From an uncultured delta proteobacterium (lineage in GTDB: Bacteria; Myxococcota_A; UBA9160; JAFDET01), in NCBI GenBank assembly GCA_947259215.1, contig CAMYLJ010000004.1:1-64000 (forward strand): a stretch of DNA of 64,000 bases, given 5' to 3'. The translations under genes were made by a program, and so were the position numbers. The notes beneath the pieces are model-generated. The model was given only the letters and a program-made list of their open reading frames with translations. It had not been told where the DNA came from and did no database searches. Below, in pieces: positions 4,582-18,796 of this stretch (positions are counted from its first letter, which is position 1; every line of letters starts with the position of its first letter).

Positions 4582-5348
4582 TGGGGGATCACGCGGGACG
4601 CGCGGTGGTGGTGACCGGCGCGGGTACGGGCATCGGCCGGGCCGTGGCGCTGCGCCTGGCGCGCGAGGGTGCACGGGTCGCGCTCCTGGGACGCACGCGC
4701 GCGAGCCTGGAGAAGACCGCCGCGGACGCAGCGGGCGAGACGCTGGTCGCCACCTGCGACGTCGCCGACGGCGCCAGCGTGGCAGCGGCCTTCGACGCGG
4801 CTGCGGAGCGCTTCGGACCGCTGCACGCGCTGGTGGCCAACGCCGGCGCGGGGGGTCCCAACGAGCCGGGCCCGGACGACCGCTGGGACGAGATCGTGCG
4901 TACGAACCTGGACGGCTCCTACGCCTGCACCCGCGCCCTCGAGCGCCACCTGGCGCCGGGGCCGGAGCCGCGGCACGTGGTCTACATGTCGTCGTGCCTG
5001 GCGCGCTTCGGGGTGCCGGGCTTCACGGCCTACTGCGCCAGCAAGACCGCGCTGCTCGGCCTCGCCCGGGCGCTGGCGCTGGAGTGGGCGGAGCGCGGCG
5101 TGCTGGTGAACGCCATCTGCCCGGGCTGGGTCGAGACCGAGATGGCCAAGGCCAGCTGGCAGAACATCGCCGAGGGGACCGGCACGAGCTTCGACGAGGC
5201 CAAGGCCGGGGCGCTGGCGGACGTGCCCCTGGGCCGGGCGGCCGATCCCGAGGAGATCGCGGCCCTGGTGTCGTTCCTGCTGGGGCCGGGAGGCCGCTTC
5301 TTCACGGGCCAGGCCCTGGACCCCAACGGCGGCGCCTGGATGGGTTGA
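4581..5348 (+). CDS. Short-chain dehydrogenase/reductase (SDR)
   Basis: A 255-residue classical SDR. The NAD(P)-binding glycine motif TGAGTGIGR is at residues 13-21, the NAG motif is in VANAGAG, the catalytic serine is in YMSS, and Tyr-x3-Lys is in AYCASK. The C-terminus ends in the usual LDPNGGAWMG-like cofactor-loop region. It shares one base with the DinG-like stop (TGATG), so it is probably translated by coupling. The alcohol or ketone substrate cannot be inferred. Acidic residues after beta-2 are not obvious (LLGRTRAS), which leans towards NADPH, but this is weak. Confidence 0.9.
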   Translation: MGDHAGRAVVVTGAGTGIGRAVALRLAREGARVALLGRTRASLEKTAADAAGETLVATCDVADGASVAAAFDAAAERFGPLHALVANAGAGGPNEPGPDDRWDEIVRTNLDGSYACTRALERHLAPGPEPRHVVYMSSCLARFGVPGFTAYCASKTALLGLARALALEWAERGVLVNAICPGWVETEMAKASWQNIAEGTGTSFDEAKAGALADVPLGRAADPEEIAALVSFLLGPGGRFFTGQALDPNGGAWMG

Positions 5349-5380: not shown

Positions 5381-5869
5381 GTGCGCTGGCAGGACCTGGG
5401 CGACGTCCGCTGCTCGGTGGCCCGCTCCCTCGCGGTGGTGGGGGACCGCTGGACCCTGCTGCTGCTGCGCGACTGCTTCCTCGGCGCCCGGCGCTTCGAG
5501 CAGTTGCAGGCCTCGCTCGGGATCTCCTCCCACCTGCTTTCGACGCGGCTCCGCAAGCTGGTGGACGAGGGCGTGCTCGAGCGCCACGCCTACTGCGAGC
5601 GCCCGACCCGCCACGAGTACCGCCTGACCGAGAAGGGCCGCGACCTCTACCCCGTGATCGCGAGCCTTGTGCGCTGGGGCGACCGCTGGCTGGCCGACGA
5701 GGCGGGGCCGCCCGTGACCCTGGTGCACCAGGGCTGCGGCCACGCCACCACCCCGACCCTCACGTGTTCCGAGTGCGGCGAGGCCCTCGAGCCGCGGGCC
5801 ATGCGACCCGTGGCGGGCCCGGCCACCCGACTGCCCGAATCCACTGCGCCCTGGAGGAGAGACCCATGA
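5381..5869 (+). CDS. HxlR-family transcriptional regulator
   Basis: A 162-residue winged-helix protein. The N-terminal motif CSVARSLAVVGDRWTLLLLRD, the RRFEQLQASLGISSHLLSTR recognition-helix region and RPTRHEYRLTEKGRDL wing are the HxlR/MarR-like signature. The C-terminal third has CGH and CSECG, a possible zinc-binding pair of cysteine motifs seen in part of this family. GTG at 5381 was chosen because the two upstream ATGs are out of frame and the promoter -10 ends at 5374. Its last codons overlap the next gene by ATGA, so regulator and molybdoenzyme form one unit. Likely an autorepressor that senses a small molecule handled by the oxidoreductase; the ligand is unknown. Confidence 0.85.
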   Translation: MRWQDLGDVRCSVARSLAVVGDRWTLLLLRDCFLGARRFEQLQASLGISSHLLSTRLRKLVDEGVLERHAYCERPTRHEYRLTEKGRDLYPVIASLVRWGDRWLADEAGPPVTLVHQGCGHATTPTLTCSECGEALEPRAMRPVAGPATRLPESTAPWRRDP

Positions 5870-8226
5870 CCGCCCCCGCCGTCCGCTCCGTGCATCCCTC
5901 GGTGTCGCGCACCCCGATTCCCCTGGACGCCAAGGACCTGCCCACCGTCTGCGTGCTGTGCAGCCACAACTGCGGCATGCGCGTGGACGTGGAGGACGGC
6001 CGCATCACGGAGGTCCGCGCCGACGAGCACAACGCGATCACCCACGGCTACGTCTGCAACAAGGGCTTCCGGATCGCGAACTACGCTCACCACGATCAGC
6101 GCGTGCAGGAGCCGCTGCGGCGGCGGGACGACGGCAGCTTCGAGCCCGTTTCCTGGGACGACGCCATCGCCGACATCGCGGCGCGGCTCGTTGCGATCCG
6201 CGAGGAGAGCGGACCCCGCGCGATCGGGCTGGTCGGGATCGGCGGCCAGGCCAACCACATGGACGCGCCCTTCGGCCTCGCGTGGCTCGGGGCGGTGGGC
6301 TCGAAGCGCTGGTTCAACGCCTTCGCCCAGGAGAAGCACCAGCACTTCCTGATCGACCAGTGGATGTTCGACTCGCCGCCCTCGGCCTGGTTCCACCCGG
6401 ACCAGAAGAACACGAAGACGCTGCTCGTGATGGGCACCAACCCCCGCATCAGCAACCGCGGCCACGCCGCCAACGACTACTTCAAGGAGTTCGAGAAGGA
6501 TCCGGAGCGGCGCCTGCTGGTGGTGGACCCGCGCGAGACCGAGACCACGCGCCAGGCGGACCGCCACGTGCGCCTGCGCCCGGGGACCGACGCCTGGTTC
6601 CTGCTCGGGGTGGCGGCGGCGATCGCCGGCTCGGAAGGCCTCGCCGACGCGTCCTTCCTGACGGAGCGCACCCACGGCTTCGACGCCCTGCGCGAGGCGC
6701 TCGAGCAGGTGGACGTGGCGAAGATGGCCGAGCACTGCGGGATCGACGCGGACGAGATCCACGCCGTGGCGTCCGAGCTCGCCGCGGGCGACGGCGCGGC
6801 CATCATGTGGGACCTGGCGGTGGAGCAGAATCTCTTCTCGACGCTCATCTCCTACCTGATCCGGGTCATCTGCGCGCTGACGGGCAACGTGGGCCAGGGG
6901 GGAAACGTCTTCCTGGAGACGCAGAATCCGCCCGAGTGGAACCCCAAGCGCTTCGACGAGCCGGAGCGCGCGCTGGCCTCGGGCATCCGGTCGATCGCCG
7001 CCATCGGCGGCTTCCCGATGTTCTCGCCGAGCCTGGTGCCCGAGGAGATCATGCTCGACCACCCGGAGCGGCTGCGGGCCCTGGTGGTCGAGGGTGCCAA
7101 CCCGTTCCTCTCCTATTCGGACACCGGCGCCTGGCGCGAGGCACGCGAGAAGCTCGACCTGCTGGTCGTGATCGAGCCCGCCATGACCGAGACCGCGCGC
7201 CTGGCCGACTACGTGCTGCCGACGCCCGTCGGCTACGAGAAGTGGGAGGTGGCGGGCTTCCCCAAGGGCTACCCCGAGGTGTACGTGCAGCTGCGGCCGC
7301 CCGTGATCCCGGGGCCCGAGCAGGCGCTGCCCGAGCCCGAGATCTACGTGCGGCTCATGGAGGCGATGGGGCTCGTGGGCGAGCCGCCGGCCAAGCTCTC
7401 CGAGCTGGCGCCGGCTGCGCTGGAGCCCGCGGGCGCCATGGCGTACCTGGCGGAGCTCCAGAGCGCGGCCGCCGGCAACGAGGCGGCGGTGATGGCGTGG
7501 GGCTACCGCACCCTCGGCCCGCACCTGCCCTCGCCGGCGCTGGCCGCCATCTGGGCCATCTGCCACCAGAACGCCTTCCTGCGCCGGGAGTCGGTGCTGC
7601 GCACCCTCGGCTCGGACTGGTCGGAGGCCAACCCCTTCGAGATCGCCGCCGAGCTCTTCCGCCGCATCCTCGAGCATCCCGAAGGCGTCGAGATCGCGCG
7701 CGCCGACACGTCGGACACGCTGAATGCGAACGTCGGCTACGAGGACAAGAAGGTTCGGCTCGCGCCCGAGCTCATGCTGGAGGAGATCGCGCGCGCGACG
7801 AACGAAGGTCCCCCGACGGACCCCGAGTACCCGTTCGTGCTGGCGGCGGGCCTGCGCACGCGCTGGACCGCCAACACCATCCAGCGCGATCCCGCCTGGC
7901 GCAAGGGCCGCGGGCCCTTCTGCACCCTGCACCTGTCTCTCGCCGATGCCGAGTCGCTCGGCGTGGCGGAGGGCGACCGGGTGCGACTCACGACGCGCCG
8001 CGCGTCGGTGGAGCTGCCCGCCGAGCTGGACCCGAAGTGCAGCCAGGGCAACGTCTGGGTACCCAACGGCTTCGGCATGGAGTACCCGGCGAACGGCGGC
8101 GAGCTCGAGGTGCAGGGCATCAACGTGAACGAGCTGACGGACGTCGCGGACCGCGACCCGATCAGCGGCTGCCCGCACCACAAGTACACGCTCTGCCGGG
8201 TCGAGAAGGTGGCGTCCGCGGCCTGA
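5866..8226 (+). CDS. Molybdopterin-dependent oxidoreductase (BisC/DMSO reductase family)
   Basis: A 786-residue catalytic subunit. The N-terminal C-x2-C-x3-C (CVLCSHNCG) and a fourth cysteine in YVCNKGF form a 4Fe-4S site. Molybdopterin-binding segments follow (TLLVMGTNPRISNRG, VDPRETET, EGANPFLSY), then the C-terminal molydop_binding barrel (NVWVPNGFGMEYP). There is no twin-arginine signal and no adjacent Fe-S or membrane subunit, so a soluble cytoplasmic enzyme is likely. The usual Mo-ligand loop reads NAFAQEKHQHF, with no cysteine and no in-frame TGA that could encode selenocysteine; the ligand cannot be assigned by eye. GGAGGAG precedes the ATG, which overlaps hxlR by four bases. The substrate is unknown. 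Confidence 0.85.
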   Translation: MTAPAVRSVHPSVSRTPIPLDAKDLPTVCVLCSHNCGMRVDVEDGRITEVRADEHNAITHGYVCNKGFRIANYAHHDQRVQEPLRRRDDGSFEPVSWDDAIADIAARLVAIREESGPRAIGLVGIGGQANHMDAPFGLAWLGAVGSKRWFNAFAQEKHQHFLIDQWMFDSPPSAWFHPDQKNTKTLLVMGTNPRISNRGHAANDYFKEFEKDPERRLLVVDPRETETTRQADRHVRLRPGTDAWFLLGVAAAIAGSEGLADASFLTERTHGFDALREALEQVDVAKMAEHCGIDADEIHAVASELAAGDGAAIMWDLAVEQNLFSTLISYLIRVICALTGNVGQGGNVFLETQNPPEWNPKRFDEPERALASGIRSIAAIGGFPMFSPSLVPEEIMLDHPERLRALVVEGANPFLSYSDTGAWREAREKLDLLVVIEPAMTETARLADYVLPTPVGYEKWEVAGFPKGYPEVYVQLRPPVIPGPEQALPEPEIYVRLMEAMGLVGEPPAKLSELAPAALEPAGAMAYLAELQSAAAGNEAAVMAWGYRTLGPHLPSPALAAIWAICHQNAFLRRESVLRTLGSDWSEANPFEIAAELFRRILEHPEGVEIARADTSDTLNANVGYEDKKVRLAPELMLEEIARATNEGPPTDPEYPFVLAAGLRTRWTANTIQRDPAWRKGRGPFCTLHLSLADAESLGVAEGDRVRLTTRRASVELPAELDPKCSQGNVWVPNGFGMEYPANGGELEVQGINVNELTDVADRDPISGCPHHKYTLCRVEKVASAA

Positions 8227-9816: not shown

Positions 9817-10836
9817 ATGAAGCCCGAGGGGGGTGGCTTGAGTCTCCATTTGCGCAGCCTGGGCCACGCCCACCCCGACAGCGAGATCAGCAACGCCTTC
9901 CTCGAGGAGCTCGGGATCGGGACCAGCGAGCGCTGGATCCTCGAGCGGGTCGGGATCCGCGCCCGGCGCAGTGTGCTGCCTCTCGACTACATTCGGGAGA
10001 CGCGCAACCGCGAGCCGCGGGCGGCTCTGGAGGCCGCTCGGGAGACCAATGCGGAGCTCGGCGCCCGTGCGGCGCGGATGGCCCTGGCCCGGGCCGGGCT
10101 CGACGCCCGCGAGGTGGGGCTCGTGGTGTGCGGCGGGTCGGCGCCGGATACGGTGTCGCCGGCGGAGGCCTGCAACGTGGCGCGCGCACTCGATCTCGCG
10201 GTTCCCGCCTTCGACTTGAACTCCGCCTGCACGAGCTTCCTGGTGGCGCTCCACTGGCTCGCGGCCATGCGTCCGGAGGCGCTGCCGGACCACGTGCTGC
10301 TGGTCGTGCCCGAGGCGTTCACGAAGACGGTGGACTACCGCGACCGCGCGAGCGCCGTCCTCTGGGGCGACGCGGCCGTGGTCTCGCCGCGGGTGCCGGG
10401 ATGCGCCCGGGTGCTGGACAGCGCCCTGGACTCCGATCCGGGCGGCGCGGAGAAGGTGGTGGTGCCGCGCCTCGGCCACTTCCGCCAGCAGGGCCACGCG
10501 GTGCAGATGTTCGCGATCAAGAAGACGAGCGCGGGCCTGACGCGCCTCCAGGCCACGCACGCCGATCCGGCGCGGGTGCAGCACTTCGTCGGGCACCAGG
10601 CCAATCTGCGCATGCTCGAGGCCGTCCGCCGCGGCTGCGGCATTCCCGCCGACCGGCACCACACGAACCTCGAGTGGTACGGCAACACCGGCGCCGCCGG
10701 CGCGCCTTCGGTCGTCTCCATGGCCTGGGAGAAGTGGGGCGCCGCGGACGACGTGGCCGTCGCGGGCGTCGGCGCGGGCCTCACCTGGGCGAGCTGCCTG
10801 CTGCGCTTCGACGCCGCGCCCGGGAGTGTGGCGTGA
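9817..10836 (+). CDS. 3-oxoacyl-ACP synthase III family (KAS III-like)
   Basis: A 339-residue thiolase-fold enzyme with the KAS III triad: Cys138 in NSACTSF, His260 in VGHQAN and Asn290 in GNTGAAG. KAS III enzymes condense an acyl-CoA starter with malonyl-ACP; related enzymes also make beta-ketones or quinolones. No acyl carrier protein or other fab gene is adjacent. Instead the stop overlaps the GTG of a giant carboxylase by four bases (GTGA), which would supply malonyl-CoA or another carboxyacyl-CoA to this condensing enzyme. The N-terminus lacks the usual initial strand motif of E. coli FabH, so this is a divergent member. Confidence 0.85.
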   Translation: MKPEGGGLSLHLRSLGHAHPDSEISNAFLEELGIGTSERWILERVGIRARRSVLPLDYIRETRNREPRAALEAARETNAELGARAARMALARAGLDAREVGLVVCGGSAPDTVSPAEACNVARALDLAVPAFDLNSACTSFLVALHWLAAMRPEALPDHVLLVVPEAFTKTVDYRDRASAVLWGDAAVVSPRVPGCARVLDSALDSDPGGAEKVVVPRLGHFRQQGHAVQMFAIKKTSAGLTRLQATHADPARVQHFVGHQANLRMLEAVRRGCGIPADRHHTNLEWYGNTGAAGAPSVVSMAWEKWGAADDVAVAGVGAGLTWASCLLRFDAAPGSVA

Positions 10837-13800
10837 GCCCGGAGGCCGGCGTGCGCCGCCTGGCCATCGTGAATCGCGGCGAGGCCGCGATGCGCTGCAT
10901 CCGGGCCGTGAAGGCGTTGCGCGAAGAGAGCGGCGAGCCCCTGCTGGCGCTGGCGATCTACACCGACGTGGACCGCGCGGCGCCCTTCGTGCGCCATGCG
11001 GACGCCGCGGTGGAACTCCCCGCCGCCGACGGTCCGGTGGCGGCGTACCTGGATCACGAGCGGCTGCTCGACGCCTTGCGGCGGCTCGGCGCGGACGCGG
11101 TCTGGCCGGGCTGGGGCTTCGTGGCGGAGGATCCGCTCTTCGCGGAGCGGGTGACCGCCGAGGGGCTCGTCTTCCTCGGGCCCTCGGCCGACGTGATGCG
11201 CGTCCTCGGGGACAAGGTCGCGGCCAAGCGCCTGGCCGAGAGCCTGGGCTGCCCGGTGACGCCGTGGAGCGGCGGGGTGCTCGCGAGCGAAGCCGAAGCC
11301 CGCGCGGCGGCGAAGGCCCTCGGCTACCCGCTGGCGCTGAAGGCGGCGGCTGGCGGCGGCGGGCGCGGCATCCGGATGCTCGACGGGCCGGAGGGGCTGG
11401 CCGAGGCCTGGCGCGCGGCGCGCTCCGAGGCGGCGGCCGCCTTCGGCGACGACCGGGTCTTCGCCGAGCGCAGGCTCGAGGGCGGCCGCCACGTGGAGGT
11501 GCAGATCGCCGGGGACCGCTTCGGCCAGGTGGTGTCCCTCGGCTGCCGCGACTGCTCCGTGCAGCGTCGCTACCAGAAGCTGATCGAGGAGACGCCGCCG
11601 CCCGGTCTGGCTCCTTCGTTGCTGGCCGATCTCGAGTCGGCGGCGGTCAACCTGGCGGCGAAGGTCGGCTACTCCGGCGTCGGCACCGCCGAGTTCCTGG
11701 TGACCGGCGACGAGTTCGCGTTCCTGGAGATGAACCCGCGGCTCCAGGTGGAGCACCCCATCAGCGAGGCCGTGACGGGCGTCGACCTGGTGCAGCTCCA
11801 GATCCGCATCGCGCGCGGCGAGCGGCTGCCGGAGCGCGGCTACCCGCAGCGCGGCGCCGCCATGGAGGCGCGGCTCTGCGCGGAGGATCCGGACGCCGGC
11901 TTCGCGCCGGCGCCGGGGCGCGTCGCGCGCTTCGACCTGGCCCTGGGGCCCGGCGTGCGCGTCGATACCGGCATCGTGGCGGGAAGCGTCGTGCCCGCCG
12001 CCTTCGACTCCCTGGTGGCGAAGGTGATCGCAGCGGGTGCCAGCCGCGAAGAAGCGCGTGCGCGCCTGGCCTGCGCGCTCGCCGACCTGGAGCTGGTGGT
12101 CGAAGGTGGCGCCAGCAACAAGGGCCTGCTGCTCGAGCTGCTCGACACGCCCGAGTTCCGCGCGGGCGGCGTGGACACCGGCTGGCTCGACCGCCGCGCG
12201 CGGCGCAGCGAGGACGCCTTCGCGCCGGCGGCGCTGGTGGTGGCCGCGATCCTGGCCTACCAGCGCGCCCGCGAGCGGACGCGCCGCAACTTCTTCGACG
12301 ATCCCGCGGCAGCCTCGGTGGCGCGGGTGCCGGCCTCCGAGGGTCAGGACATCGACCTGGCCTTCCGCGGGGAGGCGTACCGGCTGCGGGTCTTCGCCAT
12401 CGGGTCCTGGCGCTACCGGGTGCACCTGGACGGACGCGTCGTGACCGCGCGCCTCTCCGAGGAGCGCGCCGGCGCCGCGACCCTCGAGTGGGGCGGCCGC
12501 AGCCTGCGCATCCTGCACGACGCCGGTGGTGCCGGGCTGCGCATCGAGGTGGAGGGCCGCCCGTACCGGTTCGGCTGGCAGATGGCGGGGCGCGTGCGCG
12601 CGGGAGCGCCGGCGGTGGTGGTGGCGATCCACGCCGCGGTGGGCGACCGGGTGGAAGCCGGTCAGGCGCTGGCGGTGCTCGAGGCCATGAAGATGGAGAT
12701 CGCCGTCGACGCGCCCATCTCCGGCACGCTGCAGGAGGTGCTCGTGGGTCGGGGCCAGAAGGTGGCCGCCGGCGACGTGCTGCTCGTGATCGAGCCGGAG
12801 GCGTCCCAGCAGGCGTCCAGCGACGGGAGTCGCATCGAGCTGCCCGACGAAGAAGACCCGCTCTCGCTCTTCCTGAGCGACGACGGCGTCGATCTCGCGG
12901 CCGCGGATCGGGCCGATCCCGGGCTGCGGCAAGCCGCCGTCAGCGCCGCCGGCGAGGAGATCCGCCGCGTCCTGCTCGGCTACGACGCGGACCCGAGCCG
13001 GGTGGAGGCGCTGCTGGCGTTCCTCTCGGTGCCCCTCCCCGACGGTCTCTCCGCGGGGCTCCGCGCCCAGCTCGCCCTGGTGCGGCGCGAGGCGGTGCTC
13101 TTCGCCGACGTGGAGGAGCTCTTCATCCGCTCGCCCCGGGCTTCGGTGTCTGGGGAGCGCGGTCCGTCCAACCAGGCGCGCACGCGCATGTACGTGCGCC
13201 GCATGCGCGCGGGGGGAGCGGGTCTCGCGCAGGAGTACCTGGCGCTCCTACGCGCTGCGCTGGCCCACTACGGCACGCCCGATCTCACGGGCGGCCCGGA
13301 GACGGAGCGCGCCGTCCTGCGGCTCTTCGCCGCCCAGCGTTCGCCGGAGCCGCGTCACCATCTCGTGATCGGACTGCTGCGCCGCTTGAGTCAGCTGGCG
13401 GCCAGCGGGATCGACCTCGGGCGCGACGAGCTGCTGGCGGATGCGCTGGTGCGGATCGCGCGCATGCGGGGCCTGGTCCCGGACGCGCTGGCGGACCTCG
13501 CCAGCGAGCTGCGCTGGGACCTCTTCGACGCACCGGCCAGCGAGGCGCGCCTGGCCGACTCGGGGCGTCGGCTCGAGGAGTGGCTCGACCGGGTGGGGGA
13601 CGAGGCTCCGGCCATTCCCGAGGAGGTGCTGCGAGAGCTCGCCGCCGCGCCGCGCCGGGTCTTCGAGCGGGTCGGCGCCTGGATGGCCGACCTGGATCCG
13701 CGTCGCAGCGCGATCGGTCGCGCCGCCCAGCTTCGCCGCCTGTACGCACCGCTGGTTCCCACCTATCACACTTCCGGGTCGCTCGACGGCGTGGAGGTGG

Positions 13801-16388
13801 ACGAGCTGGAGCTGCCCGACGGTCGCGTGGTGCTCGGGACGGCGGTGCCGGCGTCTCGCGCGGCCGAGGCGCTGCGCGCCCTGGTGCGCCGGGCGGAGCC
13901 GGCCGTGGACGCGCTCGAGCTCGTCGCCTGGCCCGACGGCGTGGCGAACGTCGAAGCGACCGCCCGCTGCCTGCGCGACGCGTTCGCGGAGCGTGGCGTG
14001 GCCCGGAGCGCCACCTTGACGTGGCTGCCGGAGTCGGGCGAGCCGGTCCACCGCAGCTTCGCGCGCGACGCCGAGGGCGTGCGGGAGTGCCCGGAGCTCC
14101 GTGGGCTGCATCCGGAGACGGCCGACCGCGTCGATCTCGCCCGGCTCGCGAACTTCGAGCTCGAGCCGCTGCCCGGGGGCGAGGACGTCCACGTCTTTCA
14201 CGGCCGCAGCCGGGAGCTGCCCGCCGACGAGCGGATCTTCGTACTGGCCGAGGTGCGGGGCCGCGCCCGCGGCGGGCGCGAGGCGGAGCTTCACATTCCC
14301 GCCTTCGAGCGCGCCTTCGTGGCGGCGGCCCGCAGCCTGCGCGCCGCGCTGGCGGCGCGCGACGAGCGGCGGCGTCTGCACTGGAACCGGATCAGCGTCT
14401 TCGTCGGCCCGGAGGTCAGCCTGGGGCCGGACGCAGCGCGCGAGCTGGCGCGCAAGCTCTTCCCCGAGACCCGCCATCTGGGGCTCGACCGGGTCGTGGT
14501 GCGGCTGCGGCTCGTCGACCCCGAGGACCCGGCGGCCCCGGCGCGTCCCGTCGAGGTGGTGATCGCCGATCCCACCGGCAGCCGCATGGACATCGCCTGG
14601 CGCGACCCGCGCCGAGCGCCCCTGGAGCCCGCCAGCGCCTACGAGCGCAAGCTGATGGAGGCCCGCCGCCGCGGGCTCGTCTATCCCTATGAGATCGTGC
14701 GCATGCTGACGGGCGGCGGCGTGGGCCGCGACGGCGAGCCCGCCGATCACGCGCTGCCGCCGGGCCGCTTCGAGGAGTACGACCTGGTTCCCGAGAACCC
14801 CGAGCCCCGCGCGGTGCGCGTGGAGCGACCGTACGGGGAGAACGAGAGCTCGATCGTGTTCGGCGTCATCGACACGCCCACCGCGCAGGTTCCCGAGGGG
14901 ATGCGCCGGGTGCTGGTGCTCTCGGACCCGAACATCGGGATGGGCTCGCTGGCCGCACCCGAGTGCGACCGTCTGGTGGCCGTGATCGACCTGGCCGAGC
15001 AGCTGTCGCTCCCGGTGGAGTGGGTTCCCGTCTCGAGCGGCGCCCGCATCTCCATGACGAGTGGGACCGAGAACCTGGATGCCACGGCGCGGGTGGTTCG
15101 CCGCATCGTGTCCTTCACCCAGGCGGGTGGGGTGATCCACCTGGTGGTGCACGGTGTGAACGTCGGCGCCCAGTCCTACTTCAACGCCCTGGCCACGATG
15201 CTGCCGCACACCCGCGGCGTGCTGATCATGACGCCGGGCGCCTCCATGGTGCTGACGGGGCGGGCGGCGCTCGAGGCGTCCGGGAGCGTGGCGGCCGAGG
15301 ACGAGGTGGCCATCGGGGGCTACGAGCGCGTGATGGGGCCCAACGGCGAAGCCCAGTACCAGGCCGCCGACCTGGGCGACGCCTTCCGCATCCTGTACGA
15401 CCACTACCGCTACAGCTACGTCCCGCCCGGCGAGCGCGCGCCGCGCCGCCTGGCGAGCGCCGATCCCGACGACCGTGACGTGTGCACGTCGACGTGTGGG
15501 CCCGACGACGAAAGTGGGTTCGCCACGGTGGGCGAGATCTTCGACGCGAGCGCGAACCCCGACCGCAAGCGCCCCTTCGGCATGCGCTCGGTGATGGAGG
15601 CGGTCGTGGACCGCGACGGGGGGCATCTCGAGCGCTGGCGCGCGTGGTCGGGCGCGGAGATGGCCATCGTGTGGGACGCCTTCCTGGGAGGGCAGCCGGT
15701 CTGTCTCGTCGGGATCGAGAGCCGCAACCTGCCGCGCCAGGGCTACCGGCCCACGGATGGCCCGGAGTCCTGGACCGGCGGCACCCTCTTTCCGCTCTCC
15801 TCCAAGAAGGTGGCGCGCGCCCTCAATGCGGCCAGCGGCAACCGCCCGGCGGTCGTGCTGGCGAACCTCTCCGGCTTCGACGGCTCTCCCGAGTCGATGC
15901 GCAAGCTCCAGCTCGAGTACGGCGCCGAGATCGCGCGGGCGGTGGTGAACTTCCGCGGGCCGCTGGTCTTCGTGGTGGTCTCCCGCTACCACGGCGGCGC
16001 CTACGTCGTGTTTTCGAAGGCGCTGAACGACGGCCTCCACGCTGCCGCCCTGCAGGGCTCCTACGCCTCGGTGATCGGCGGCAGCGCGGCGGCCACGGTG
16101 GTCTTCTCCCGGGAAGCGCGGGCGCGGACGGCGTCCGATCCCCGGGTGGCCGGCCTTCTGGGCGAGGAGCGGGAGCGGCGCGAGAGCGAAGTGCTGCTGG
16201 AGAAGCAGACGGAGCTGGCGGTGGAGTTCGACGCGATCCACACGGTCGGGCGGGCGCGGGAAGTCGGCTCCCTCGACCGCATCCTGCCGGCCTCGGAGCT
16301 GCGCCCGTTCCTGGCGGAGGCGCTCCGCGGCGGAGAGGCCTCCGCGCTCAGCAAGTTCCGCGGGCGCGCGGGGACGTTGGTTGAGTAG
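10833..16388 (+). CDS. Single-chain acetyl/acyl-CoA carboxylase, eukaryote-like
   Basis: An 1851-residue protein containing every activity of a biotin-dependent acyl-CoA carboxylase. Residues 1-450 are biotin carboxylase (ATP-grasp GGGGRGIRM; EMNPRLQVEHPISEAVTG). Residues about 570-650 are the biotinyl domain, with EAMKMEI and biotinyl Lys620. Residues about 680-1350 form a long helical/central region resembling the ACC central domain of fungal and animal enzymes. Residues about 1350-1850 are a fused carboxyltransferase with both crotonase-like halves (GARISMTSG, GGVIHLVVHGVNVGAQ, GGSAAATVVFSREAR). Bacterial ACC is normally four polypeptides; this order BC-BCCP-central-CT is that of eukaryotic ACC (about 2200 residues). 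Translationally coupled to KAS III. The stop codon lies inside a 63-nt palindrome. Confidence 0.9.
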   Translation: MSPEAGVRRLAIVNRGEAAMRCIRAVKALREESGEPLLALAIYTDVDRAAPFVRHADAAVELPAADGPVAAYLDHERLLDALRRLGADAVWPGWGFVAEDPLFAERVTAEGLVFLGPSADVMRVLGDKVAAKRLAESLGCPVTPWSGGVLASEAEARAAAKALGYPLALKAAAGGGGRGIRMLDGPEGLAEAWRAARSEAAAAFGDDRVFAERRLEGGRHVEVQIAGDRFGQVVSLGCRDCSVQRRYQKLIEETPPPGLAPSLLADLESAAVNLAAKVGYSGVGTAEFLVTGDEFAFLEMNPRLQVEHPISEAVTGVDLVQLQIRIARGERLPERGYPQRGAAMEARLCAEDPDAGFAPAPGRVARFDLALGPGVRVDTGIVAGSVVPAAFDSLVAKVIAAGASREEARARLACALADLELVVEGGASNKGLLLELLDTPEFRAGGVDTGWLDRRARRSEDAFAPAALVVAAILAYQRARERTRRNFFDDPAAASVARVPASEGQDIDLAFRGEAYRLRVFAIGSWRYRVHLDGRVVTARLSEERAGAATLEWGGRSLRILHDAGGAGLRIEVEGRPYRFGWQMAGRVRAGAPAVVVAIHAAVGDRVEAGQALAVLEAMKMEIAVDAPISGTLQEVLVGRGQKVAAGDVLLVIEPEASQQASSDGSRIELPDEEDPLSLFLSDDGVDLAAADRADPGLRQAAVSAAGEEIRRVLLGYDADPSRVEALLAFLSVPLPDGLSAGLRAQLALVRREAVLFADVEELFIRSPRASVSGERGPSNQARTRMYVRRMRAGGAGLAQEYLALLRAALAHYGTPDLTGGPETERAVLRLFAAQRSPEPRHHLVIGLLRRLSQLAASGIDLGRDELLADALVRIARMRGLVPDALADLASELRWDLFDAPASEARLADSGRRLEEWLDRVGDEAPAIPEEVLRELAAAPRRVFERVGAWMADLDPRRSAIGRAAQLRRLYAPLVPTYHTSGSLDGVEVDELELPDGRVVLGTAVPASRAAEALRALVRRAEPAVDALELVAWPDGVANVEATARCLRDAFAERGVARSATLTWLPESGEPVHRSFARDAEGVRECPELRGLHPETADRVDLARLANFELEPLPGGEDVHVFHGRSRELPADERIFVLAEVRGRARGGREAELHIPAFERAFVAAARSLRAALAARDERRRLHWNRISVFVGPEVSLGPDAARELARKLFPETRHLGLDRVVVRLRLVDPEDPAAPARPVEVVIADPTGSRMDIAWRDPRRAPLEPASAYERKLMEARRRGLVYPYEIVRMLTGGGVGRDGEPADHALPPGRFEEYDLVPENPEPRAVRVERPYGENESSIVFGVIDTPTAQVPEGMRRVLVLSDPNIGMGSLAAPECDRLVAVIDLAEQLSLPVEWVPVSSGARISMTSGTENLDATARVVRRIVSFTQAGGVIHLVVHGVNVGAQSYFNALATMLPHTRGVLIMTPGASMVLTGRAALEASGSVAAEDEVAIGGYERVMGPNGEAQYQAADLGDAFRILYDHYRYSYVPPGERAPRRLASADPDDRDVCTSTCGPDDESGFATVGEIFDASANPDRKRPFGMRSVMEAVVDRDGGHLERWRAWSGAEMAIVWDAFLGGQPVCLVGIESRNLPRQGYRPTDGPESWTGGTLFPLSSKKVARALNAASGNRPAVVLANLSGFDGSPESMRKLQLEYGAEIARAVVNFRGPLVFVVVSRYHGGAYVVFSKALNDGLHAAALQGSYASVIGGSAAATVVFSREARARTASDPRVAGLLGEERERRESEVLLEKQTELAVEFDAIHTVGRAREVGSLDRILPASELRPFLAEALRGGEASALSKFRGRAGTLVE

Positions 16389-16432
16389 TCGAGAAACTGC
16401 TGCAGTTTCTCGACTACTCAACCAACGTCCCC
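16370..16432. repeat. 63-nt perfect palindrome (REP-like), copy 1
   Basis: Two 31-base arms separated by one T. The left arm is GGGGACGTTGGTT, then GAGTAGTCG, then AGAAACTGC; the right arm is its exact reverse complement. The carboxylase gene (plus strand) ends TLVE-stop inside the left arm, and the CoA-transferase gene (minus strand) ends GDVG-stop inside the right arm, so the element supplies the last codons and stops of two convergent genes. In RNA it would fold into a long hairpin from either strand. No T-run follows. See the sister copy at 30003-30065. Confidence 0.95.
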
Positions 16433-18796
16433 CAGGCCTTCCGGTCGCGTTGCCAGCACGCCGTCGCGCTCGAGCGCGTCGATCTCCGCGTCGTCCACCC
16501 CGGCTTCGCGCAGGATCTCGCGGTTGTGCTGGCCCAGCAGGGGGGCCGGGCGGCTCAGCCAGTGTTCGACGCTCGCGTAGCGGAAGGGCACGGTGGGCAC
16601 CGGCTGCGCGCCCACCACCGGATGATCGAAGGTCTCGTAGAAGCCGCGCGCCGCCATCTGCGGATTGCGGCTCGTCGCGCGCGGGTCCGCGAGCGGGGCC
16701 GCGGGGATGCCCGCCGCCAGCAGCTCCTCCACCACCTTGCCGCGCTCGCGCGCCGCGAACCACGGGCGCAGCTCGGCGTCGATGCGGTCGTGGGCGGCGC
16801 GGCGGCCCGGCAGATCGACCAGCGCGGCGTCCTCGGCCCAGGCCGGATGCCCCAGCACCCGACGCAGCCCCTCCCAGTGCGCGTCGCTCGCCACGGCCAG
16901 CGCCAGCCAGCGCGGGCGGGTCGCCGGCTCGTGTCCCAGGCACGGGTAGATGCCCTGGGGTGCGGCCACCGGGCTGCGGTTGCCCTGGCGTTCGAGCAGG
17001 TTGCCGTAGGCGCTGAACTCGATCAGCTGCTCCGCCGCCGCGTTGAGCGCGCCCTCCACCATGCTGCACTCCACGTGAACGCCCTCGCCTTTCGCCTCGC
17101 GTTCGGCCAGCGCTACCAGGAAGGCGAAGGCCGCGTGCATCCCCGCCAGCGGGTCGCACGGGCCGCGCTGGATGCGCGGCTGGTCGTCGGCGTGTCCCGT
17201 GACCCAGGCCAGCCCCGTCATCTGCTCCATCGTCTGGGCGAAGCCCACGTTGTCGCGCCAGGGGCCGGAGAGGCCGAAGGCGGGCATGCGCAGCATGATG
17301 GTGCGGGGGTTGGCCGCGTGGACCGCCTCCCAGGTCAGGCCGAAGCCCTCCGTCACCCGGGGCGAGAAGTTGTCGAAGAGCCCGTCGGCCCCGGCGAGCA
17401 GGCGTCCCATCACCGCGCGACCGCGCGGATCCGTCAGGTCGAGAGCCAGGCCGCGCTTGTTGGTGTTGGCGGTCAGGAAGAAGTGGCTGCACTCCCACCA
17501 CTCCGCGTGGCGCCCGGCCATCATGCCCCCGATCATGCGCATGCCGTCGGGGCGCCGGCCCGATTCCACGTGCACCACGTCGGCGCCGAGGGTCGCGAGC
17601 ATGTGGGTGGCCGAGGGCCCGGCCCACCAGGCCGTGAGGTCGAGCACCCGCAGGCCGGCCAGCGGCAGCTCCGGCTCCCCCTGCGGCGGCGGTCGTTCGG
17701 GCTGGCGCGTTTCGATCCGACCCGTGTGCTCGCCCAGCCGAGGCGCCCGGCGGAAGGCCGGCGCCTCTTCCCCGTCCACGAGGTAGGGCGGGCGCGGGTG
17801 CAGGAAGTCGTCCTCGGGATCCCGACGGAAGACGCCCCGCGCCGCCAGCTGCTCCTGGCTGCGCACGCTGTCGCCGTTGCAGACCGGGGCCACGGGGATC
17901 CGCAGCAGCGAGGCCCGCTCGATGATCTCCGCGGTGGTGTGCCGGGTGGTCCACGCGCGCACGATCTCGTTCCACTCCTCGAAACGCGCCATGCGGCCCA
18001 CCACCTGGGCCAGCAGCTCGTCGTCCTGGAGATCCGTGCGCTCGATCAGGAGCAGGAAGTCCGAGAACTGCTGGCGTGAGTTGGTGCAGAAGCCCACGTA
18101 GCCGTCGGCGGTGGGCTCGATCGAAGGCGTCTCGACGGTGGCGGGCAGCGCCCCCCCGACCTCCCCCAGATCCATCAGCCGGTGGACCAGGTCCATGTAG
18201 TTCGTGCCGGCGATGGTCATGAGCTCGAGGATCGAGAAGTCCACGCGCTCACCGTGACCCGTGCGGCGGGCGCGCATCACCGCCGCCAAGGCGCCCACGG
18301 CGGCGAAGGTGCCGGCCACCCACTCGGCGATGCGGCCGCCGGCCTGGAAGGGCTCCTGGCCGGCGAGGCCGCGAGTGCCGATGGAGCCGCACGCCGCCTG
18401 GACCGTGAACTCGCTGGCGGGTCGCCCATCCCAGGGCCCCCCGTTCCCGAACCAGGTGAGCGAGAGCTGCACGAGGCCGGGGAAGCGGCCGGCGAAGTCC
18501 GGGCCGTCCGGTGCGAAGTCCTCCATCACCAGGTCGGCGCCCGCGACCAGCTCGAGCGTCGCAGGCTCGTCCGGCATGCCCACGACTGCGCGCTTGTTGT
18601 GGTGCAGGAAACGGAACAGCGCCCCGTCGCGTTTCCCCAGCTCGGCGCCGCTGGCGGACCAGCGGCGCAGCGGATCGCCGGCCGCGGGCTCCAGCTTCAC
18701 CACGTCGGCGCCGGCGTCGGCCAGCAGCTTGCTGCAATAGGGACCGGCGATCCCGCTCGTGAAGTCGACCACCCGGATGTCGCGCAGACCGTGCAC
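16418..18796 (-). CDS. Tandem-domain CaiB/BaiF family CoA-transferase
   Basis: A 792-residue protein (GTG start) made of two complete CaiB/BaiF (family III CoA-transferase) domains in tandem, residues about 1-375 and 380-790; single-domain members have about 400. Both halves begin with the nucleotide-fold motif (RVVDFTSGIAGPYCSKLLAD and RVLDLTAWWAGPSATHMLA). The second half keeps the catalytic aspartate in PCDPLAGMHA. At the matching site the first half has AEWVAG, glutamate for aspartate, so it may be inactive. The family moves CoA between an acyl-CoA and a free acid. It starts nine bases after an amidohydrolase gene and ends within the palindrome. Confidence 0.85.
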   Translation of the reverse strand: MHGLRDIRVVDFTSGIAGPYCSKLLADAGADVVKLEPAAGDPLRRWSASGAELGKRDGALFRFLHHNKRAVVGMPDEPATLELVAGADLVMEDFAPDGPDFAGRFPGLVQLSLTWFGNGGPWDGRPASEFTVQAACGSIGTRGLAGQEPFQAGGRIAEWVAGTFAAVGALAAVMRARRTGHGERVDFSILELMTIAGTNYMDLVHRLMDLGEVGGALPATVETPSIEPTADGYVGFCTNSRQQFSDFLLLIERTDLQDDELLAQVVGRMARFEEWNEIVRAWTTRHTTAEIIERASLLRIPVAPVCNGDSVRSQEQLAARGVFRRDPEDDFLHPRPPYLVDGEEAPAFRRAPRLGEHTGRIETRQPERPPPQGEPELPLAGLRVLDLTAWWAGPSATHMLATLGADVVHVESGRRPDGMRMIGGMMAGRHAEWWECSHFFLTANTNKRGLALDLTDPRGRAVMGRLLAGADGLFDNFSPRVTEGFGLTWEAVHAANPRTIMLRMPAFGLSGPWRDNVGFAQTMEQMTGLAWVTGHADDQPRIQRGPCDPLAGMHAAFAFLVALAEREAKGEGVHVECSMVEGALNAAAEQLIEFSAYGNLLERQGNRSPVAAPQGIYPCLGHEPATRPRWLALAVASDAHWEGLRRVLGHPAWAEDAALVDLPGRRAAHDRIDAELRPWFAARERGKVVEELLAAGIPAAPLADPRATSRNPQMAARGFYETFDHPVVGAQPVPTVPFRYASVEHWLSRPAPLLGQHNREILREAGVDDAEIDALERDGVLATRPEGLGDVG

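Follow-up and report, generated by a model that had tools for sequence, protein, structure and literature searches.

A eukaryotic-type single-chain acetyl-CoA carboxylase gene overlapping a KAS III gene in an uncultured Myxococcota bacterium

Introduction

The question raised by this locus is what kind of enzyme is encoded by a bacterial gene whose 1851-residue product fuses biotin carboxylase (BC), BCCP, central and carboxyltransferase (CT) regions, and which pathway is served by an enzyme whose gene overlaps that of a KAS III. The original prediction noted that bacteria usually split these parts. As worded, this statement passes over known bacterial examples. SACE_4237 of Saccharopolyspora erythraea, characterised in 2019, is a multidomain homodimer with a central region, which carboxylates acetyl- and propionyl-CoA, rescues an E. 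coli mutant in ACC and is essential, its reported orthologues being actinobacterial only (PMC6491548). Since SACE_4237 has the same architecture, the single-chain eukaryotic layout was already known in bacteria, and a scan of genome contigs returned at least 571 relatives of the 1851-aa protein. Another single-chain multiple-domain ACCase, Shewanella AccS, has a domain order unlike that of eukaryotic ACC (PMC11602165); it resembles the protein studied here as a bacterial single-chain ACC that takes the place of the multi-subunit enzyme, as the present one appears to do.

The window is a stretch of 64,000 nt from contig CAMYLJ010000004.1 of an uncultured Myxococcota bacterium (genome label G000), and the coordinates below are positions in it. 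The assembly comprises 5.70 Mb and is 95.7% complete; statements about this genome come from profile and protein searches of the assembly.

Results

Domain structure of the carboxylase

The features relevant to the locus are as follows.

4650-5348, + strand: SDR oxidoreductase of the FabG-like family (adh_short_C2, 160 bits)
9817-10836, + strand: KAS III (FabH-like), 339 aa, ATG start (Pfam ACP_syn_III and ACP_syn_III_C)
10822-10826, + strand: ribosome-binding-like GGGAG, six bases 5' of the carboxylase GTG (read from the sequence)
10833-10836, + strand: GTGA overlap of the KAS III stop TGA and the carboxylase start GTG (read from the sequence)
10833-16388, + strand: single-chain eukaryotic-type acetyl-CoA carboxylase, 1851 aa, GTG start (translation, Pfam, relatives)
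10854-12191, + strand: biotin carboxylase domain, aa 8-453 (Pfam; aligned with yeast and human ACC)
12192-12605, + strand: linker with BT-like region, aa 454-591 (collinear with the BT of yeast and human ACC)
12606-12791, + strand: BCCP, aa 592-653 (Pfam Biotin_lipoyl, 58.8 bits)
12798-14732, + strand: ACC central domain, AC1-AC5-like, aa 656-1300 (Pfam ACC_central, PDB profile, Foldseek)
14733-16385, + strand: carboxyltransferase region, N and C halves (Pfam Carboxyl_trans)

The translated carboxylase ORF has zero internal stops, and its G+C content is host-like. Relatives at the level of the order align with it at 54-68% identity, mostly over the full length, and its codon-position G+C follows the pattern of coding sequences, which together argue that the ORF is not a chance frame. 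The domains are arranged in the order BC, BT-like linker, BCCP, central region and CT. Inside BC, Pfam placed Biotin_carb_N at aa 8-122, CPSase_L_D2 at aa 127-334 and Biotin_carb_C at aa 345-453. The glycine-rich motif GGGGRGI lies at aa 174 and DAVWPGWG at aa 88; the latter, along with LGDK and PWSG of the same domain, is common to eukaryotic ACC. A Pfam search gave zero matches in the BT-like linker. The biotinyl lysine is Lys620 (codon 12690-12692), within an EAMKME motif starting at aa 617. ACC_central was matched at aa 1040-1249 with 31.5 bits (cut-off 23.2), and a single Carboxyl_trans match (aa 1356-1824; 14898-16304) spans both CT halves.

Relationship to eukaryotic ACC

A profile of the central region was built from 22 relatives and searched against all PDB sequences. 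All 11 significant matches were eukaryotic ACC chains (best E-value 5.6e-22), and the first non-ACC entries appeared at E 0.29 and above, which is chance level. The AF2 model of the region reached a mean pLDDT of 85.2, and its comparison with the PDB in Foldseek gave 31 matches at E<0.001, all of them eukaryotic ACC, with the yeast ACC holoenzyme as the best (2.3e-21) and a target TM of 0.67 for yeast AC3-AC5. These matches identify the region as a homologue of the AC1-AC5 central domain of eukaryotic ACC. In the ranking obtained with the CT profile, 20 eukaryotic ACC chains (2.4e-29 to 4.8e-21) came first and the first bacterial beta subunit, of the PCC type, followed at 2.4e-11. Moreover, the full-length profile was collinear with yeast ACC (5csk) and human ACC1 (8xkz) over nearly the whole chain. 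Pfam order, PDB profile and Foldseek thus agree on the predicted fusion in eukaryotic order within 1851 residues.

The window protein shares with both eukaryotic enzymes the BC-BT-BCCP-central-CT layout and the AC1-AC5 central fold. It differs from them in being about 400 aa shorter and only about 15% identical in the central region, and the Arg of the yeast CT motif ANWRGF is replaced by Ser in the window protein and throughout the bacterial family. When BC sequences were placed in a tree against an outgroup of E. coli AccC, PCC, MCC and LCC (9 outgroup rows only), the bacterial single-chain enzymes joined yeast and human ACC with an SH-aLRT of 97. Here, on a long branch (2.7), and in a second BC tree with a smaller outgroup, the eukaryotic ACC fell outside all bacterial members with a support of 85-86. 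The W.GWG motif was present in 67 of 68 bacterial single-chain sequences and in both eukaryotic ones, and in 0 of the 9 outgroup sequences. The FAS-linked sequences of Myxococcota formed one clade in the tree with the smaller outgroup (100), and the actinobacterial, acidobacterial and C16-type sequences another (94). The CT tree was saturated, with eukaryotic and outgroup branches at the limit of 10 changes per column, and was not used to place the eukaryotes.

The 80 relatives kept of the at least 571 come from Myxococcota/Deltaproteobacteria, Acidobacteria, Xanthomonadales MAGs and Actinobacteria (Saccharopolyspora, Amycolatopsis, Rhodococcus and Thermobifida), and the complete ones among these 80 have the same architecture of about 1850 aa. 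An S. hirsuta protein (L119), presumed to be the SACE_4237 ortholog, is 43% identical to the window protein over aa 9-1834. Domain order, a similar size (about 200 kDa), the ACC central region and a eukaryotic-type CT are common to SACE_4237 and the window protein; unlike SACE_4237, the window type belongs to a separate clade and, in Myxococcota, has links to KAS III and to an operon for type II FAS. At the actinobacterial and acidobacterial ACC loci examined, one weak match in L106 was the sole sign of such a KAS III. The window protein is therefore a genuine eukaryotic-type ACC of a family known from actinobacteria, and its architecture is not new.

KAS III and the fatty-acid operon

The KAS III retains an intact catalytic triad (Cys138, His260 and Asn290), conserved in 12/12 sequences, and differences fall on its third codon positions about two times as often as on the first or second; the gene is under purifying selection. 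It scores below the NCBIfam cut-off for beta-ketoacyl-ACP synthase 3 (TIGR00747) and is not the canonical FabH of the genome, for which the C12 protein scores 118 bits versus 77. A KAS III of the window type (E<1e-100) was found in 31 of 40 genomes. In 25 of these 31, ACC follows KAS III downstream on one contig and one strand, no more than about 5 kb away, and in the other 6 the two genes are on different contigs. The GTGA overlap was read where it had been predicted, and the link that had been drawn from it is conserved as gene order; the tight overlap, however, is local: KAS III and ACC are separated by 3.4-5.1 kb carrying further fatty-acid genes in the majority of the other families of the order.

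In most order-level relatives, the genes follow one another as helicase, SDR (FabI/FabL-like), KAS III, FabA, FabG, FabZ-like, FabF-like, ACP, acyltransferase, PPTase and ACC, so that ACC ends the operon begun by KAS III. Because canonical FabH (7/7 genomes) and canonical FabF (8/8) are located outside this operon, it represents a second type II FAS. In several relatives an LpxL/HtrB-like acyltransferase is found 3' of ACC (L058:13942-14943 and similar); this neighbour suggests that the product of their FAS may go to an outer-membrane lipid.

All four genomes of the window family (G000-G003) have KAS III next to ACC, and the two are directly adjacent also in G005, which belongs to another family. 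No FabA/FabZ domain was detected in G000-G003, and no operon-type FabF was found in G000. The window looks to have kept only KAS III, ACC and perhaps the SDR of the ancestral operon; the direction of change would have been loss of the middle genes in the window family and not gain elsewhere. The SDR between helicase and KAS III, an arrangement kept in L067, is a possible remnant of the operon. Between SDR and KAS III, where relatives carry FAS genes or other DNA, the window contains a molybdopterin oxidoreductase gene (5764-8226, + strand), with an HxlR-like regulator, recognised by eye, 5' of it (5381-5869, + strand). The suggestion of a dedicated starter module is correct in part only: the ancestral unit appears to have been a complete second operon for type II FAS. 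At E<=1e-8, no FabA/FabZ-fold dehydratase (PF07977) was detected in G000, G001, G002, G003, G015 and G021. G000, G015 and G021 do have canonical FabH and FabF, and therefore the fatty-acid dehydratase there must be of another type.

Absence of accA, and the other carboxylases of the genome

None of the 40 genomes, made up of the window genome and 39 relatives, yielded an accA match above the cut-off. The window genome has nine places matching Carboxyl_trans (PF01039) and four BC places. No short stand-alone accD was found among the former, all nine of which match a full-length CT model, so that the proposed search of this genome returned neither gene. The BC places are the window protein, the C16 paralog, an MCC-like pair (C8) and a PCC-like operon of CT, BC and BCCP (C39). 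Across 378 genomes of the phylum, accA was present in 187, single-chain CT in 121 and both in 12; accA thus occurs in 12/121 genomes with single-chain ACC versus 175/257 without it, in counts and Fisher p-values that ignore kinship. When ten genomes carrying only the high-scoring, C16-like class are left out, 8 of which have accA, the overlap decreases to 4/111. This high-scoring class is the PKS-linked one in the case of C16, and presumably also in the rest. These are strong genomic signs that the window-type ACC replaces AccABCD in much of Myxococcota, and the near-exclusive distribution supports the idea of a substitute contained in the original prediction.

The C16 paralog (L017:2797-8361; 1855 aa) has the same architecture and is 45-48% identical to the window protein. 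Its neighbours (L017:2-9104) are a giant type I PKS, whose KR-DH end borders it on one side, and an Sfp-type PPTase on the other; Acidobacteria, Xanthomonadales MAGs and a few actinobacteria show this trio of PKS, ACC and PPTase as well. Together with the FAS operon, this arrangement gives the ACC family two separate ties to fatty-acid or polyketide machinery. The PCC-like CT, BC and BCCP genes of C39 (L018:7833-11424) lie downstream of a malic-enzyme-like gene. An Asp at one CT position marks classic PCC; the C39 CT has Val there, compared with this Asp in the solved PCC 6ybp and Ile in the 6ybp variant 6ybq.

Discussion

The presented results are probably best explained by a eukaryotic-layout acetyl-CoA carboxylase that stands in for AccABCD and whose gene originally closed a second type II FAS operon. 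In the proposed mechanism, BC would carboxylate the biotin on Lys620 using ATP and bicarbonate, BCCP would carry carboxybiotin to CT, and CT would make malonyl-CoA from acetyl-CoA and probably also methylmalonyl-CoA from propionyl-CoA. The analogy with SACE_4237 and the absence of accA make acetyl-CoA the likeliest substrate. The central domain would act as a structural scaffold, probably within a homodimer as in SACE_4237, and the enzyme may likewise be essential. The ancestral operon would have comprised KAS III, FabA, FabG, FabZ-like, FabF, ACP, acyltransferase and PPTase genes with ACC at its end, and loss of the middle genes in the window family would have left KAS III and ACC translationally coupled. 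We propose that, through this coupling, malonyl-CoA is produced at the same time as the first condensing enzyme.

The window genome has other possible suppliers of malonyl-CoA, namely the PCC-like C39, the MCC-like C8 and the single-chain C16, and redundancy is possible there since the single-chain ACC and C39 coexist. The ACC could serve only a specialised second pathway, in which an unusual acyl chain is placed onto a lipid by the acyltransferase of the operon, with housekeeping malonyl-CoA coming from C39. The operon has a KAS III, FabA, FabG, FabF, ACP, acyltransferase and PPTase of its own, canonical FabH and FabF being elsewhere, and a type I PKS and a PPTase similarly accompany the paralog. 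Five order-level genomes (G011, G015, G017, G021 and G026) lack accA as well as this ACC, which indicates that another enzyme can suffice for malonyl-CoA; this KAS III is missing from them too, as if the whole operon had been lost. Moreover, four f7 genomes devoid of single-chain ACC carry a C39-type CT at 80-81% identity. On the other hand, G006, G014, G020 and G027 have the single-chain ACC and neither accA nor a C39-type CT, which makes this ACC their most plausible malonyl-CoA source, and in G013 the other BC-bearing protein found, among the candidates scored, is an LCC only. The window family lacks the FAS partners yet has the ACC, and malonyl-CoA is diffusible. We consider a purely specialised role doubtful, although it has a real chance of being correct.

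The other readings concern the identity and origin of the protein. An ordinary long-chain (LCC) or YCC-type single-chain acyl-CoA carboxylase would, like the window protein, carry BC, then BCCP and then CT along a single chain. LCC-type enzymes, however, have about 1100-1170 aa, no central domain and a CT of another subfamily, whereas the window protein has 1851 aa and the ACC central domain. The window CT profile misses LCC 4rcn at E<=0.001; L151, a true LCC of 1167 aa from the order of the window genome, lacks ACC_central and hits 4rcn with E=0. The BC tree also sets LCC apart from the window type. With central, CT and whole-chain profile searches all pointing to eukaryotic ACC, membership of the LCC/YCC family, named beforehand as the outcome contrary to the prediction, is refuted as a family assignment, and we regard this reading as very improbable. 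BC proteins of about 1190 aa in relatives are LCCs and not pyruvate carboxylases.

The eukaryote-like layout might also be ascribed to a recent transfer of a eukaryotic ACC gene or to a contaminating contig. Against this stand the presence of ACC across many families of the order at the identities given above, the host-like G+C and coding pattern, the bacterial operon context and the branching of eukaryotic ACC outside all bacterial members; none of the trees put the window protein within eukaryotic ACC. Such an origin has next to no credibility. The converse relationship, in which, of the bacterial lineages alive today, the Myxococcota FAS-operon clade lies nearest the ancestor of eukaryotic ACC and the donor of the cytosolic enzyme was myxobacterial-type and not actinobacterial, is a speculative and improbable proposal. 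The support in the BC trees for eukaryotes outside the bacterial members is modest and compatible with a myxobacterial-type donor. A literature search of incomplete coverage found nothing relevant on a link of Myxococcota ACC to eukaryogenesis.

Within the preferred reading, that of an AccABCD substitute derived from a FAS operon, the operon context is the part that looks new: a literature search, likewise incomplete in coverage, found no description of a eukaryotic-type ACC in Myxococcota or of its FAS-operon context. The bacterial eukaryotic-type ACC is extended from actinobacteria to many Myxococcota and Acidobacteria, and it is placed where AccABCD is missing across much of a Gram-negative phylum, tied to fatty-acid and polyketide operons. 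More, and different, bacterial sequences become available for the question of the origin of eukaryotic ACC, along with a test case for why a bacterial enzyme keeps the central domain.

As for the 3' surroundings of the locus, a convergent gene of about 790 aa (16418-18796, - strand) contains two CoA_transf_3 stretches in one chain. It is followed by an amidohydrolase gene and then an MFS transporter gene, and the same order is seen in L067.
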